5,095 nt of DNA from Candidatus Mcinerneyibacteriota bacterium (GCA_030630935.1 DAOVMD010000260.1:1-5095), one strand, 5' to 3'. Positions 471 through 4,958 are shown, counted from the stretch's first letter. Program-made: numbers and translations. The notes: generated by a model not told the origin, from the letters alone.

Positions 471-2306
471 TTAACCAATAGTATCGATTGCTTTTGCAAT
501 AGTATGTCCGTTATTTACAGCATTTATTACATCAGGGCCTTTTGCAATATCCCCACAGGCATATAGCCAATCAAGTTTTGTCTTTCCATTTTCATCTGTA
601 ACGACTATTGGTCCTCTGAATTCAATATTATCTTTATATTTCCCTAAATAATTATAATTTGGAGCTTGTCCAACCGCTTCTACAATTTCATCAACTTTGA
701 ATACTTTGGTTTTCGATGTATTAAATTTCGGATTAAATCTTTGATCTTTATCAAATACCTGTGTACAACATTCAACAGTAACTGATTTAATTTTTTCATT
801 ATCCAGCTCTATTTTCGCATTTCCCCAACCAGGAAAAATTTTAATATCTTCTTCTTGCGATTCTATTATTTCCTCTTCATCAGCAGGCATAATATCCCTT
901 GTTTCAAGAGAAACAACAGAAATATCGACCTTATCATATATTTCTCTTTGTAACCTGGAAAGACTTCGTGCAATATCCATTGCAACATTTCCTCCACCGA
1001 TAACAAGAATCTTCTTTTCAACCGGAACTTTCTCACTTCTTGAAATCTTAGGAAGTAATTCTAATGCTTGAATAATAAAAGGTGATTTTACATCTTTTGG
1101 GAGTACTGATCTTCCTTCATTGAAACCAGTATCTAAAATGACATAATCTGAATTTTTCCTTATTTCATCAATAGTTATATCTTTACCAACTTCTGTATTT
1201 ACCTTTATTTTTACCCCAAGTTGTGTGATTGCTTCAATATCCTTGTCAAGTGCTTTATCCGGTAAGCGGTAGTTTGGAATTCCATATCTCATTATGCCGC
1301 CGGCAAGACTCATCTTTTCATATATTGTAATATCATAACCCATTAAAGAAAGGTAATATGCAGCGCTTAATCCACCAGCTCCGGCACCAATAATGGATAT
1401 AATTTTCTTTTTCCCTTTTATAGCACCATTGGCAACAACTTTTTTAAGATCTTCATAATCAAGATTGTCAACAGCATATCTTTTTAACCATCTTATAGGA
1501 ATTGCTTCTCCTCTATGTGATAGTGAACAGGCAATTTCACAATTATGTGTACAAACCCTTCCGCAAACATTTGGGAACGGATTGGTTTTGTAAATTTGCT
1601 TTACCGATTCTTTCAGGTCTTCATCCCAGATCGCATGAATATAGTCAGATATATTCATATTTGCAGGACAAGCATCCTCGCACAAACTACACTCAAGACA
1701 TCGATCAGATTCTTTTAATGCCTGCTCTTTTGAATACCCTTTAACGATTTCTATAAAAGAAGAACTCCTTTCATTTGGAGTAAGCATCGACATAGGAACT
1801 CGTTCAGGATCAAATAGTGCGTATTTCAAATCGGAGCTATATCCGTCATAATTTGCCTTTCTATGCGTAAGAGATGCCTTAAAAATAGAATATTCTTCTT
1901 CCGGCAAGAAATGTTCTTTATCAGATTTCTCATCCTTAGGAATAAAAACAAATGTTTTCGTGTCAAAATGAATATGATAAAAATCTCGTGATAATCTTAA
2001 CGAACCAGGTGGACAAATATCAACACAAAGTCCACAGAAACAACATCTTCCATAATCAATTTCAGGTCGTTCATTTTTTTTCCCCGATTCTGGTTTAATC
2101 TCGGCAAGTTCTACCATTGTAATTGCTTCATTAGGACAGATATCTTTACAATTTCCACAACCCGTACACGTTTCCCAATCATTAAGATGAAAACCACGGC
2201 ATCTTAATGCCGGTTCCTTCTTTTCAAATGGAAACCTCAATGTTTTAGGTTTTTTAAAAAGAAATTTAATTGCATTAAAAGGATTTAAAATACTTGGTTT
2301 TGACAT
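471..2306 (-). CDS. NuoI-type ferredoxin fused to GltD/NfnB-type FAD-NAD(P)H oxidoreductase
   Basis: 611 residues in two modules. Residues about 1-105 resemble NuoI, with two 4Fe-4S motifs: C47-C50-C53-C57-P and C88-C91-C94-C98-P. A linker of about 85 residues follows. From about 165 it is like the small subunit of glutamate synthase or NfnB: ERVPM, then a cluster domain with C203-C206-C209-C213-P and C248/C252/C256/C260 (CGRVC..NCEIAC). The FAD dinucleotide fold is at 305-330 (G307-G309-G312, E330), the NAD(P)H fold at 433-450 (G437-G439-A442), and the C-terminal FAD motif ACGD is at 583-586. All expected residues are present. ATG 2306 is preferred over 2342: AAAGGAG lies 8 nt upstream, and the longer frame starts inside the nuoD-like gene. 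As last gene of the operon with no NuoE/F/G visible, it probably connects NAD(P)H to the NuoB-like cluster. No glutamate synthase large subunit is nearby. AegA-like proteins combine similar modules but lack this context. Confidence 0.9.
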   Translation of the reverse strand: MSKPSILNPFNAIKFLFKKPKTLRFPFEKKEPALRCRGFHLNDWETCTGCGNCKDICPNEAITMVELAEIKPESGKKNERPEIDYGRCCFCGLCVDICPPGSLRLSRDFYHIHFDTKTFVFIPKDEKSDKEHFLPEEEYSIFKASLTHRKANYDGYSSDLKYALFDPERVPMSMLTPNERSSSFIEIVKGYSKEQALKESDRCLECSLCEDACPANMNISDYIHAIWDEDLKESVKQIYKTNPFPNVCGRVCTHNCEIACSLSHRGEAIPIRWLKRYAVDNLDYEDLKKVVANGAIKGKKKIISIIGAGAGGLSAAYYLSLMGYDITIYEKMSLAGGIMRYGIPNYRLPDKALDKDIEAITQLGVKIKVNTEVGKDITIDEIRKNSDYVILDTGFNEGRSVLPKDVKSPFIIQALELLPKISRSEKVPVEKKILVIGGGNVAMDIARSLSRLQREIYDKVDISVVSLETRDIMPADEEEIIESQEEDIKIFPGWGNAKIELDNEKIKSVTVECCTQVFDKDQRFNPKFNTSKTKVFKVDEIVEAVGQAPNYNYLGKYKDNIEFRGPIVVTDENGKTKLDWLYACGDIAKGPDVINAVNNGHTIAKAIDTIG

Positions 2307-2314
2307 TTGCTTTT

Positions 2315-2321
2315 CTCCTTT
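2315..2321 (-). promoter_or_regulatory. Ribosome binding site of the NuoI-GltD fusion
   Basis: AAAGGAG on the minus strand ends 8 nt before ATG 2306 and overlaps the TAA stop of the nuoD-like gene. It fixes the start at 2306 instead of the longer frame at 2342 and suggests tight coupling with nuoD translation. Confidence 0.8.
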
Positions 2322-3426
2322 ATCTATCAATTTCCGGAGCAATAATATAGAGACTAATCATAATATTTCCAACATCGGAAATATTAGCTCCCTTGAGCAA
2401 TTTCTCTAAAATAGGTAGTCCATGTGTATAAGAAGGGGTTCTGAAATGCACACGATAAGGTTTGTCTTCTCCGTTGCTTACAAGGTAAAGCCCCAATTCT
2501 CCGCGTGATGATTCAACTCTTACATAAGCTTCACCTTCCGGTATTCGCCATTTTAGTGGATTAGGTGTTCTGTTCCACACATCACCTTCAGGCATCATAT
2601 CAAGCAGTTTAAAAATCATGTGAACACTTTCTATCATCTCATCTCTCACTATCCATATTCTTGAATAGGCATCACCATCCTCTCTTGTGGGAACATCAAA
2701 ATCTACCTTATCATAAGCTGCATAAGGTTCAACCTTTCTAATATCATATTTCATTCCTGTTGCTCTCAAAACTTGACCTGCAGCACCCAATTCTTTTGCA
2801 TCTTTGTGAGTTATTGCTCCAATTCCTTTTGCTCGTTTATAAAATAAGGCATTATTGAAAAATGCAGCATCGTAATCAGGAATACAACCACCTATAGCAT
2901 GTAGGGTTTTTACAATTTTATCTTTAAAACCTTTGGGGAAATCTCGTCTTACGCCACCCGGATTGATATAAATATGATAAACACGACCTCCTGTTAGTTC
3001 TTCAAATAGATCCAAGATAATATCTCTATGATACATCGCCCATTGAGCAGCAGTATCAAAGCCAAGCATATTGGCATAAGCCCATAAACCAAATAGATGA
3101 GAACCCACTCTGGCAAGTTCCAGATAAATACTTCTTATATAGTTTGCTCTTTCCGGGATCTCTATTCCGGCTACTTTCTCTACTCCCATTGCATATATCA
3201 TTTCTATTGAATCTGGTTCAATAACATTTATTCTACAGACCAATGGAAAATTTTGCATCCAGGTTCTATACTCCATCAACTTTTCAAACCCACGATGCAG
3301 ATATCCTGGGTTTGCTATGGCCTCTATAATTTTATCACCTTCGACTTTTAAAGTTATACTAAAATTACCAACCATTCCAAGATGTTGGGGTCCATAAAAT
3401 AATTCTAATTCTCTTTCTTCAATCAT
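2320..3426 (-). CDS. nuoD: NuoD-like large subunit lacking both Ni-ligand cysteines and canonical quinone-site residues
   Basis: 368 residues, homologous to complex I 49-kDa subunit and NiFe-hydrogenase large subunit. Family landmarks: GPQH (12-15), GYLHRGFEKLME (41-52), VEKVAGIEIPERANYIR (82-98), ELARVGSHLFGLW (104-115), GGRVYHIYINPGGVRRD (146-162), the RATGMKYDIR-PYAAYD block (221-239) and the C-terminal APEIDR. Hydrogenases need two CxxC motifs for NiFe binding. Here the N-terminal pair falls at about N67 and E70, and the C-terminal DPCxxC is replaced by IIAPEID, so no Ni site is possible. By alignment by eye, the quinone-site His of complex I (second His of HPAAHG) is V19 and the quinone-site Tyr (in DRxDYxS) is V68. 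It is therefore neither a hydrogenase nor a standard quinone reductase, and resembles Ehr-type subunits. GGAGG lies 10 nt before ATG 3426. The symbol marks homology only. Confidence 0.92.
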   Translation of the reverse strand: MIEERELELFYGPQHLGMVGNFSITLKVEGDKIIEAIANPGYLHRGFEKLMEYRTWMQNFPLVCRINVIEPDSIEMIYAMGVEKVAGIEIPERANYIRSIYLELARVGSHLFGLWAYANMLGFDTAAQWAMYHRDIILDLFEELTGGRVYHIYINPGGVRRDFPKGFKDKIVKTLHAIGGCIPDYDAAFFNNALFYKRAKGIGAITHKDAKELGAAGQVLRATGMKYDIRKVEPYAAYDKVDFDVPTREDGDAYSRIWIVRDEMIESVHMIFKLLDMMPEGDVWNRTPNPLKWRIPEGEAYVRVESSRGELGLYLVSNGEDKPYRVHFRTPSYTHGLPILEKLLKGANISDVGNIMISLYIIAPEIDR

Positions 3427-3929
3427 TTTTCTCTATCCTCCACCGGTAAAACAGAATCGTAAAAATTTTTAGAATACTCCCTTGTATCAAAATCCTTCCT
3501 AAAAGGAGGGATTTCATACTTTCTGTAAAGAAAAAGTGGAATTAATCTATTATTTCCGTTAAAAACTACTCCAAATAGTTCATGTATTTCCCTTTCATAA
3601 AATTCAGCATTTTCAAATATAGGAAGAACACTCATAATTTCAGGATTCTTTCTTGATATCTTTGCCTTTAAAATTATATGAGTTTTGCTCCTTTCATCGT
3701 CCAATAAATAAGAAGTTAATATGTAAACTATTTCAAATTGATTCTCTTTGATCCAGTCTACACAGGAAATTAATGCAAGATGATCAAATCCATTGTTTTT
3801 AAGAAAACTTAGAATATTTAATGTTTGTTCCTTCTGTACATTTAAGAAGATTCTATTATCTTTACCAACTTTCGATACAACATTCTTAAAAACGTTCCTT
3901 ATTTCTTCTTGTAATTTATTTATGTTCAT
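3423..3929 (-). CDS. nuoC: NuoC-like 30-kDa subunit
   Basis: 168 residues, matching the complex I 30-kDa / hydrogenase subunit E family. This is a structural subunit without cofactors that packs against the NuoB- and NuoD-like subunits in the peripheral arm. The diagnostic region is FYEREIHELFGVVFNGN (about 110-126), followed by LIPLFLY and PPFRKDFDTREY, which match the family signature (ER E..D/E.FG...F.G......L). The central FDHLALISCVDW (about 48-59) matches the usual '...SAVDY' strand. I chose ATG 3929 because it overlaps the upstream stop as ATGA and has AGAGGA 6 nt upstream. The longer frame from 3971 adds 14 residues lying wholly inside nuoB-like coding sequence. The gene ends in an ATGA overlap with the nuoD-like gene, implying translational coupling. 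No cysteine cluster is expected or seen. Confidence 0.93.
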   Translation of the reverse strand: MNINKLQEEIRNVFKNVVSKVGKDNRIFLNVQKEQTLNILSFLKNNGFDHLALISCVDWIKENQFEIVYILTSYLLDDERSKTHIILKAKISRKNPEIMSVLPIFENAEFYEREIHELFGVVFNGNNRLIPLFLYRKYEIPPFRKDFDTREYSKNFYDSVLPVEDREK

Positions 3930-4492
3930 TTTACATCCTCTTTTTCTTCTAATGGAAACAACGGTTCCCACTCAAGTTTTCCCAATACCTTTTCTTGATT
4001 TTCGCGATAATATTTATATTTTTCTTTATATTTTTTATATCCATCTGCCATTTCTTTATCTATTAATGTCCATAAATGTGTTACTCCAATAAATATTGCT
4101 TCAGGACGCGGCATACAGCCTGCTATCCAACCATCTACGGGGATATACTTATCCAGATGTTTGATCGTATTATATGAATCCCAATACATCCCGCCATTTA
4201 TGGGACAGGAACCGAATCCGATAACAAATTTTGGGTCAGGCATCATTTCATAAGTCTTAATAATTGCCTTTAAGGTTTTTATAGAGACATATCCGGTAAT
4301 CAAAAACAGATTTGCATGCCTTGGAGTCGCAACCGGGATAACCCCAAACCTTTCAGCATCCCAACGTGTAGTTATAACAGGTGGAACTTCAATAATACCG
4401 CAACCTGTGCAAAAATAAATCGCAGAAAGGGAATATTTATGTCCCATTTTCCCTGGTTCTTTAAACCATTTCAAAATTTTATTTCTATCCAT
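3926..4492 (-). CDS. nuoB: NuoB-like [4Fe-4S] subunit with hydrogenase-type CxxC
   Basis: 188 residues, homologous to complex I subunit B (20 kDa/PSST) and the small subunit of group 4 hydrogenases. It would carry the terminal [4Fe-4S] cluster that passes electrons to the site shared with the NuoD-like subunit. Candidate ligands are C28 and C31 (CTGC), C96 (GFGSC) and C126 (GCMPRPEA). WDAERFG, TPRHANLFLITG and MPDPKFVIGFGSC are clear family motifs. Canonical complex I has adjacent CC; the CxxC here and GC.PRPEA are more like hydrogenases. One residue appears inserted between C31 and E35 (CGIIE against the usual CDIE or CAIE). Residues after about 148 form a lysine- and tyrosine-rich charged tail beyond the conserved core. 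ATG 4492 has AGAGGA 7 nt upstream. The stop overlaps the nuoC-like start as ATGA. A 17-nt direct repeat flanks the gene. The symbol marks homology only. Confidence 0.93.
   Translation of the reverse strand: MDRNKILKWFKEPGKMGHKYSLSAIYFCTGCGIIEVPPVITTRWDAERFGVIPVATPRHANLFLITGYVSIKTLKAIIKTYEMMPDPKFVIGFGSCPINGGMYWDSYNTIKHLDKYIPVDGWIAGCMPRPEAIFIGVTHLWTLIDKEMADGYKKYKEKYKYYRENQEKVLGKLEWEPLFPLEEKEDVK
3929..3945 (-). repeat. 17-nt direct repeat, copy at the 3' end of the nuoB-like gene (contains the nuoC RBS)
   Basis: Identical to 4493-4509. This copy is coding: it spans the last codons of the nuoB-like gene (..K-E-D-V-K) and carries the Shine-Dalgarno for nuoC-like ATG 3929, whose A is the last base of the repeat. 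Apart from one A in the A-run, similarity continues through the ATG in both copies. Confidence 0.85.
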
Positions 4493-4509: not shown

Positions 4510-4523
4510 AAATATGTCAAAAA

Positions 4524-4534
4524 GACACAGAGTT
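4524..4534 (+). repeat. Inverted repeat, copy downstream of the GxxExxY gene
   Basis: GACACAGAGTT on the plus strand lies in the 58-nt gap between the GxxExxY stop and the nuoB-like start. It is the exact inverted partner of 4921-4931, so the two copies bracket nearly all of the GxxExxY gene. A further pair, AAATATG, lies outside in the same inverted sense (4510-4516 plus, 4956-4962 minus), but that match is short and AT-rich. Confidence 0.75.
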
Positions 4535-4550
4535 CTCGGAGAATTTAATT

Positions 4551-4958
4551 TCACAATATTAACCTCTCTATCCCATTTTTTAATAAAGCTTCATTAAAAT
4601 TTATTAATAATCCTATTCTTTTCCCTGCCATTCTCAAATATGACAATACCTGTGCATTATAAATTGTTGATAAATTACTAACTGCTTTTAATTCAACAAT
4701 TACCTTATCTTCTACTAATAAATCTAACCTGAAATCTCCCAACTTTCTATTCTTATATTGAACAGGAATAATCACCTGGCATTTATAGTTTATCTTATTT
4801 AAATCAAATTCTATACATAAAGCAGATTCATAAATTGACTCTAACAATCCTGGTCCTAAATTTCTATGAACTTCTATTGCGCATCCAATTACTTGTTCTG
4901 TAACTTTATTTAATATATCTAACTCTGTGTCCTCTGTGCCTTTGTGGCTATTATTCAT
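4551..4958 (-). CDS. GxxExxY protein (PD-(D/E)XK nuclease-like superfamily)
   Basis: 135 residues, usual for this family. The signature G37-LL-E40-SI-Y43 is intact and follows the typical EVHRNLGPG stretch. A PD-(D/E)XK-type core is visible: D79 in FRLDLL, then E89-L-K91 (VELK), and a RecB-like QxxxY motif, Q103 to Y107. All residues expected for a metal-dependent nuclease fold are present, but to my knowledge no activity or biological role is established for the family. I chose ATG 4958 because AAAGGA sits 7 nt upstream; the longer frame back to 5027 would run into the nuoH coding region. The gene lies between the nuoH-like and nuoB-like genes, where no complex I or hydrogenase subunit of this kind belongs. 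Its N-terminal codons (HKGTEDTE) consist of a repeat-like DNA sequence that recurs inverted just after the gene. I infer a mobile or inserted accessory gene, not a subunit of the complex. Confidence 0.9.
   Translation of the reverse strand: MNNSHKGTEDTELDILNKVTEQVIGCAIEVHRNLGPGLLESIYESALCIEFDLNKINYKCQVIIPVQYKNRKLGDFRLDLLVEDKVIVELKAVSNLSTIYNAQVLSYLRMAGKRIGLLINFNEALLKNGIERLIL
4921..4931 (-). repeat. Inverted repeat, copy at the 5' end of the GxxExxY gene
   Basis: GACACAGAGTT on the minus strand is an exact match to plus-strand 4524-4534. It lies inside the N-terminal codons of the GxxExxY gene. Just before it is a second near copy of the 9-mer: GGCACAGAG followed directly by GACACAGAG, together encoding G-T-E-D-T-E. 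Confidence 0.75.

Follow-up and report, generated by a model that had tools for sequence, protein, structure and literature searches.

A NuoI-GltD-type fusion gene in an MBS/Mbx-like bacterial operon: a candidate NAD(H) input module for a sulfur-linked ion pump

What is a NuoI-type ferredoxin domain doing in the same polypeptide as a complete GltD-type flavoprotein, directly downstream of nuoB-, nuoC- and nuoD-like genes, and to which kind of membrane complex does it belong? The locus that raises this question is an entire contig of 5,095 bp, referred to here as the window (G000:C28), from a 3.16-Mb, 80%-complete MAG of a Candidatus Mcinerneyibacteriota bacterium. The reading we favour, with a probability of about 0.52, is that the fusion protein serves an MBS/Mbx-type pump which would pass electrons to and fro between NAD(H) and sulfane sulfur, with a proposed direction and substrate. 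All the genes considered here are on the minus strand, including the fusion gene, for which the sequence-only reading had given no strand. They are transcribed in the order nuoH-like end, GxxExxY gene, nuoB, nuoC, nuoD and fusion gene (Table 1), the upstream part of the operon being interrupted within nuoH by the end of the contig.

Table 1. Features of the window, with positions counted along its 5,095 bp
Feature	Position	Strand	Evidence
Fusion gene: NuoI/MbsN-type 2x[4Fe-4S] domain and NfnL/GltD-type FAD/NAD(H) flavoprotein (predicted), 611 aa	471..2306	-	ORF, NF010590, Pfam, PDB comparison, alignment, predicted fold
NuoI/MbsN-like domain, aa 1 to ~122; C47/50/53/57 and C88/91/94/98	1941..2306	-	Pfam Fer4_7 46-101; 6u8y_N E 2.4e-29
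Fer4_20 helical domain, aa 181-282; C203/206/209/213 and C248/252/256/260	1461..1766	-	Pfam, alignment
Pyr_redox FAD and NAD(H) domains (predicted), aa 300-609; GGGNVAMD ~437, triplet S-L-E ~467-469	480..1409	-	Pfam, alignment, fold
NuoD/MbsL-like subunit, 368 aa; without Nqo4 H38, Y87 and all four NiFe Cys	2320..3426	-	family models, Pfam, PDB, alignment
NuoC/MbsK-like subunit	3423..3929	-	family models, Pfam
NuoB/MbsJ-like subunit, 188 aa; FCTGCGIIEVPP motif, MbsJ spacing	3926..4492	-	family models, Pfam, PDB, alignment
GxxExxY (PDDEXK_3) gene between nuoH and nuoB	4551..4958	-	family models, Pfam
NuoH/MbsM-like membrane anchor, C-terminal 41 residues, ended by contig edge	4970..5095	-	match to L049 NuoH C-terminus

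The GxxExxY gene is probably not part of the complex, and is missing from the junction of nuoH and nuoB in two related loci (L022 and L049); it looks like a mobile cassette within a respiratory operon. Repeats of the CACAGAG type flank it near 4515-4545 and 4920-4950, and five more diverged copies of the gene are found elsewhere in the source genome. At the other end of the window, the 3' region at positions 1-470 has no ORF of 60 aa or more, and an Rfam search of the whole window, this region included, returned no match; the GC skew of this contig end runs opposite to that of the operon.

The fusion itself, as described in the sequence-only reading, was borne out in all its parts. A single ORF of 611 aa, which starts with ATG and is preceded by the Shine-Dalgarno-like sequence AAAGGAGA, carries the NuoI-type domain and a complete GltD-type module, directly behind the genes for NuoB, NuoC and NuoD. 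All eight cysteines of the two NuoI-style motifs are invariant in a 39-sequence alignment, and a domain search recovered the expected succession of Pfam Fer4_7 (residues 46-101), Fer4_20 (181-282) and Pyr_redox_2 (304-596), with E values from 1e-13 to 1e-29. The architecture is already catalogued, without functional description, as the 'putative oxidoreductase' NCBIfam NF010590/PRK13984, which covers residues 2-609 in one stretch (E 1.5e-234). As the window protein scores 780 bits and falls below the strict cut-off of 946, it appears from its sequence to represent a related subfamily.

A search of genome context showed that the same fusion and gene order recur widely, in dozens of genomes and in many phyla. 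The genome_contigs scan returned 39 loci, about 35 of which have both halves in one ORF; the hosts include Gammaproteobacteria (Thiocapsa, Thiomargarita, Parabeggiatoa and Escarpia endosymbionts), Alphaproteobacteria, Zixibacteria, Planctomycetota, Fibrobacterota, Myxococcota and Spirochaetota. Strong matches to NF010590 were present in 23 of 386 other genomes, a few of these being the flavoprotein part alone, and a second search, in another phylum, found the fusion in nine of 54 genomes; Thermotoga maritima, used as a control, encodes a protein above the NF010590 cut-off. The read-level frameshift that the sequence-only reading had named as a possible objection is ruled out by the approximately 35 intact fusions, and an artefact of assembly or frameshift was rejected on the grounds that many independent assemblies contain intact homologues, with the gene order conserved. 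No account of PRK13984 or of a NuoI-GltD fusion was found in the open-access literature, where, for Thermotoga, 'TM1217' occurred only within an ortholog table. Nor did that open-access literature yield any account of the NAD(H) fusion, of its NAD and NADP variants or of the module exchange described below.

By sequence, the soluble arm, most of which is encoded in the window, is closer to the Pyrococcus MBS than to respiratory complex I. When compared with all PDB chains, NuoB best matched 6u8y_J (E 1.5e-66, the next match having 1.6e-33), NuoD best matched 6u8y_L (1.8e-106, as against 2.6e-74 for Thermus Nqo4) and the NuoI part best matched 6u8y_N (2.4e-29, with complex I at about 1e-13). 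The proximal cluster of MBS has three Cys ligands only, the loop of MbsJ C25, reported as a non-ligand, being shortened, and the H38 and Y87 of Nqo4 are absent from MBS (PMC7684303). The window NuoB motif FCTGCGIIEVPP aligns without gaps to the MbsJ sequence FCTGCGGIEMPP, and CTGCGxxExPP with the MbsJ spacing recurs in the aligned fusion operons; the tandem cysteines (CC) that complex I uses for cluster N2 are absent from NuoB, which has CTGCG. Both H38 and Y87 are missing from the related NuoD sequences (28 of 28), the H38 column being E, V, I or S and the Y87 column V or M in all those compared, and the window NuoD also lacks the two NiFe Cys pairs of a group 4 [NiFe] hydrogenase. In two loci labelled Deltaproteobacteria (L021 7830-8396 and L052 1855-2421), NuoB has STACG in place of CTGCG, the first Cys having become Ser and the other three being kept; this loss fits with MbsJ C25 not being a cluster ligand.

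With MBS the nearest relative, an MBS-type cluster motif in NuoB and both H38 and Y87 absent, a relay into the quinone pool is the less likely reading, and a quinone-type complex I is disfavoured both by the residue tests on NuoB and NuoD and by the PDB ranking. The operon described in the sequence-only reading as complex I-like does contain genes of the NuoB, NuoC and NuoD types, but it is not well described as a plain complex I with a new NADH input, MBS being nearer. The NuoI part is joined to the flavoprotein in the window and its relatives, rather than forming a free-standing MbsN, which lowers the case for an 'archaeal-type MBS' but not the case that the complex works like MBS. In the 80%-complete source genome, family searches found no complex I of its own: the matches to PF01512, the NuoF family, look like RnfC, PduS and a Hyd/diaphorase-type subunit and not like the NuoF of complex I. 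PF00361 had no match in this genome, that part of the operon probably being missing from the assembly.

The fold of the fusion was predicted with AlphaFold2 on a 39-row alignment (mean pLDDT 84.6, pTM 0.83), the NuoI half being modelled with moderate confidence, at a pLDDT of about 76-87 around the clusters and below 60 at both domain ends. In this model, residues 163-611 are predicted to share the fold of NfnL (5jfc_L; Z 44.1, rmsd 2.3, 435 aligned), a comparison that scarcely tests the NuoI half. The Fer4_20 domain has eight cysteines (Table 1) and lacks the NfnL ligand set of seven Cys and one Glu: the Glu of L-E-R-F in NfnL is Lys in the fusion (L-K-R-Y), and C248 is absent from NfnL. Given this Lys and the extra conserved C248, the cluster next to the FAD is probably ligated differently from that of NfnL.

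The YRR triplet that binds the NADP phosphate in NfnB and DsrL-2 is also lacking, being replaced by S-L-E in the window fusion and, across the whole first set of 34 fusions, by S/A/C/T-L-E (L-Q in one). In DsrL, YRR corresponds to NADP(H) and such replacements to a preference for NAD(H) (PMC7596348). Hence the substitution of S-L-E for Y-R-R predicts the use of NAD(H), not NADP(H), and the NADPH use that the sequence-only reading had allowed for is unlikely. YRR-type fusions were found in distant relatives, in four other lineages (G050, G109, G154 and G350), and NADP(H)-type fusions therefore exist outside the lineage of the window. An independent origin of the NADP(H)- and NAD(H)-type fusions was considered and not upheld, as a single fusion clade was not rejected (AU p 0.35).

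Since the window contig ends in nuoH, the membrane arm, the antiporter genes and the CoA reductase are known from relatives. In L049/L093, which belong to the same class as the window and have a NuoI part 77% identical to it, the operon runs mrpE, CoA-disulfide/persulfide reductase, ArsR regulator, mrpF, mrpG, mbhE-mnhB, mrpC, mrpD-like, nuoL/M-like, nuoH, nuoB, nuoC, nuoD, fusion. The best models of the relatives' two antiporter-like subunits are PRK08377 and PRK08668. An Mrp module with two antiporter-like subunits is found in L049/L093, L092, L094, L095, L122, L123 and L128, among others, and complete operons of the L049/L093 layout are present in many further genomes. A CoA-disulfide reductase gene also lies directly behind the fusion in L021, so that this link was seen at two of the loci examined (the L049/L093 type and L021), which come from two phyla, and ArsR genes lie within or beside the operons of L020, L047 and L094. 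These linkages provide independent, though limited, support for a role in sulfur metabolism. The NSR of P. furiosus and T. maritima is presumably a member of the CoA-disulfide reductase family. NSR accompanies MBS/MBX in both species, and mbxA of T. maritima is up 4.36-fold with S0 (PMC9431562).

A rubrerythrin/ferritin-like gene follows the fusion in both of the loci tested for it (L029 11818-12330 and L035 11664-12329), ORFs of 160-180 aa are found behind it in many other proteobacterial loci, and a protein with an intein-splicing/Hint domain is encoded directly behind it in L095 (2984-3544). In two YRR-type operons the antiporter-like subunits apparently form one chain (L124 7649-10789, 1046 aa; L132 5155-8076, 973 aa). 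Two Zixibacteria loci (L017 11937-21659 and L018 3447-13200) have a second complex I-like operon after the fusion operon, with genes for a molybdopterin oxidoreductase, NuoH and a NuoD-like protein.

From the domains, gene order, family placement, cluster motif, loss of the quinone residues, NAD-type site and genetic link to a CoA-persulfide/disulfide reductase in two phyla, we infer the following electron path, substrate, ion coupling and direction. The window would encode the peripheral arm of an MBS/Mbx-type membrane complex, an Mrp-antiporter-linked relative of complex I, in which the MbsN/NuoI ferredoxin-type subunit is covalently joined to an NfnL/GltD-type flavoprotein. Electrons would move, in either direction, between NADH, the FAD, two [4Fe-4S] clusters of the Fer4_20 domain, two of the NuoI domain and the proximal cluster of NuoB, with up to four [4Fe-4S] clusters in one chain forming the relay to the latter, which by analogy with MBS probably has three Cys ligands. 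Sulfane sulfur, in the form of polysulfide or an organic persulfide or disulfide, would react at this cluster in the NuoB/NuoD/NuoH chamber, and the reaction would be coupled to the movement of H+ or Na+ through the Mrp-type membrane arm. In an anaerobic fermenter, as the source genome appears to represent, the likely direction would be towards polysulfide, from NADH and possibly from reduced ferredoxin as well; in sulfur-oxidising Gammaproteobacteria with the same operon it could reverse, generating NADH from sulfide and spending the ion gradient. On textbook potentials, the drop from NADH to polysulfide is about 50-60 mV per electron under standard conditions. Pumping with NADH as the sole donor would therefore be marginal; ferredoxin may contribute, or the direction may be reversed in the sulfur oxidisers. 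A point against the favoured reading is that the NuoI clusters, which the fusion keeps, could still take electrons from ferredoxin.

The same components could be arranged in other ways. The main rival dispenses with a sulfur acceptor: ferredoxin would pass electrons through the NuoI clusters and the fused flavoprotein to NAD+, making the complex an ion-pumping ferredoxin:NAD+ oxidoreductase that does the job of Rnf. Such an enzyme would enjoy a comfortable energy drop and make use of a nucleotide site that the P. furiosus MBS does not have, and it is the older proposal for Mbx, Thermoanaerobacter clades holding either a 13-gene mbx or Rnf (PMC3608648, PMC4596419). We nevertheless consider it less likely than not: the source genome already has RnfC and RnfD genes that could perform this task, a ferredoxin:NAD+ route would not need the family-wide three-Cys motif of the proximal cluster together with an emptied quinone site, and reduction of sulfane sulfur was later demonstrated for the MBS of P. 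furiosus (PMC7684303). The energy problem would also be eased if an NfnL-type FAD merged electrons from NADH and ferredoxin to reduce polysulfide with pumping, and the closest fold to the flavoprotein is indeed that of a bifurcating subunit. Electron confurcation of this sort is improbable, given the Lys at the equivalent of the reported Glu cluster ligand, the extra C248 with its implication of a different ligation beside the FAD, and the examples of GltD and DsrL, which have the same fold and do not bifurcate.

More improbable still is a variant of complex I delivering electrons from NAD(P)H to the quinone pool, the fusion replacing both NuoI and NuoEFG. It would account for the order nuoB-C-D-I, for the lack of any separate nuoI, nuoE, nuoF or nuoG in related operons, an absence that the sequence-only reading had anticipated, and for the name of the NuoD-like gene, which exceeds the cut-off of the curated NuoD model (417 against 360 bits); it would not account for a NuoD without H38 and Y87, a NuoB without the tandem Cys pair or the clearly closer relationship with MBS. 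Finally, the contig is short and the two halves of the fusion show differing phylogenies, as might be expected of a chimeric or mis-assembled gene, an explanation that we regard as having very little chance of being correct when intact fusions are found in an isolate record (Thiocapsa marina, L046) and in the single-contig genomes G329, G350 and G394.

These differing phylogenies bear on how the input module has evolved. The NuoI part of the window fusion is 67-76% identical to those of a group from Zixibacteria, Fibrobacterota, Planctomycetota and Myxococcota, but the flavoprotein part only about 40-43%, whereas both parts are 64-80% identical within that group. Two genomes of the window's class have two MBS-like operons, one window-like (type 1) and one nearer the proteobacterial form (type 2). 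The NuoI parts of the fusions in G006 differ throughout, mostly having 40-70% identity per 25 residues; identity climbs near residue 171, at the domain border, and is 100% over about residues 271-337, the latter being the shared contig end. The last ~100 bases there may be an assembly overlap, but the bases 100-200 from the end are 98% identical. In the flavoprotein tree, the window falls into a single clade (100/100) with G6 type 1, G6 type 2 and G2/G3 type 2, and both fusions of MAG B62_G9 (Spirochaetota) make up a second (100/99); in the NuoI tree, type 1 groups with the Zixibacteria group (97/83). AU tests rejected a topology with the type 1 flavoprotein parts in the Zixibacteria group (p 2.8e-68 and 1.2e-16), as they did one uniting the paralogues' NuoI parts (p 0.0016 and 7.7e-6); since these groups were defined with the trees and identities already in view, the p values are indicative. 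Most simply, these data would mean that in two lineages a type 2 flavoprotein half was copied into the paralogous type 1 operon, leaving the NuoI half in place; the pairs within a MAG depend on correct binning, but the clade also mixes types across MAGs. The input module would thus appear to evolve as an exchangeable cassette.

A second, truncated copy of the flavoprotein lies at a contig end in the source genome itself (L007, G000:C442, 4013-4413; 92.8% nucleotide identity over 401 bp), directly followed by genes of the lipid A/Kdo type. This copy may be a remnant or the edge of a type 2 operon, or a rearrangement.

Taken at its widest, the proposal would be of a family of bacterial MBS-like pumps that couple sulfane sulfur directly with the NAD(H) pool, bypass quinones, run in reverse in sulfur-oxidising Gammaproteobacteria and take their input from an exchangeable NAD(H)/NADP(H) cassette that has been copied at the domain border between paralogous operons at least twice; we put this forward tentatively, as a possibility with the odds against it. 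In discussions of evolution MBS has been placed between hydrogenases and complex I, and ferredoxin is described as its donor. If bacterial versions of MBS have a built-in NAD(H) module, then a low-potential sulfur pump gained an input for pyridine nucleotides independently of NuoEFG, and the module exchange would be a testable case of cofactor input evolving apart from the pump. As the curated models name an NADH-quinone oxidoreductase, metabolic models may wrongly assign these subunits to quinone respiration. A direct route from sulfide to NAD+ in sulfur-oxidising Gammaproteobacteria would bear on the supply of NADH for carbon fixation, and T. maritima, in which mbx expression has been studied, would offer a laboratory system for such tests.

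The complex is of a known kind, MBS/Mbx, and bacterial mbx clusters are already known. The P. furiosus MBS (formerly Mbx, 6U8Y) shares with it the NuoB/C/D/I-type arm, to which it is nearest by sequence, the cluster motif, the absence of the quinone residues and, in the fusion's relatives, the Mrp-type membrane genes. It differs in that its MbsN is a separate ferredoxin-accepting subunit of 208 aa without a flavoprotein, and in that MbsL keeps two residual NiFe Cys, dispensable in MBS (PMC7684303), of which the window NuoD has none. The mbx clusters of T. maritima, Thermoanaerobacter and Caldanaerobacter subterraneus subsp. yonseiensis are likewise bacterial MBS/Mbx homologues, with 13 subunits or genes where counted; the passages cited describe them as ferredoxin-dependent, with no mention there of a fused NAD(H) flavoprotein (PMC9431562, PMC3608648, PMC4596419). 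Respiratory complex I (Nqo/Nuo) has homologues of NuoB/C/D/I/H in the same gene order, but its tandem-Cys N2 cluster, quinone residues and NuoEFG are missing here. NF010590/PRK13984 has the same full-length architecture over 611 positions, and differs in the score by which the window protein falls short of its cut-off. NfnL/NfnB and the small subunit of GltD (5jfc_L, 5vj7, 2vdc_G) have the predicted fold of residues 160-611 (Z 40-44), but are separate subunits, to which the fusion adds a NuoI domain; NfnL/NfnB also has YRR, for NADPH, where the fusion has S-L-E and an extra Cys. DsrL, too, is a GltD-like flavoprotein, which comes in NAD(H)- or NADP(H)-type variants and has an extra ferredoxin domain (PMC7596348), but in DsrL this domain is C-terminal, and the partner is DsrAB and not a membrane complex.
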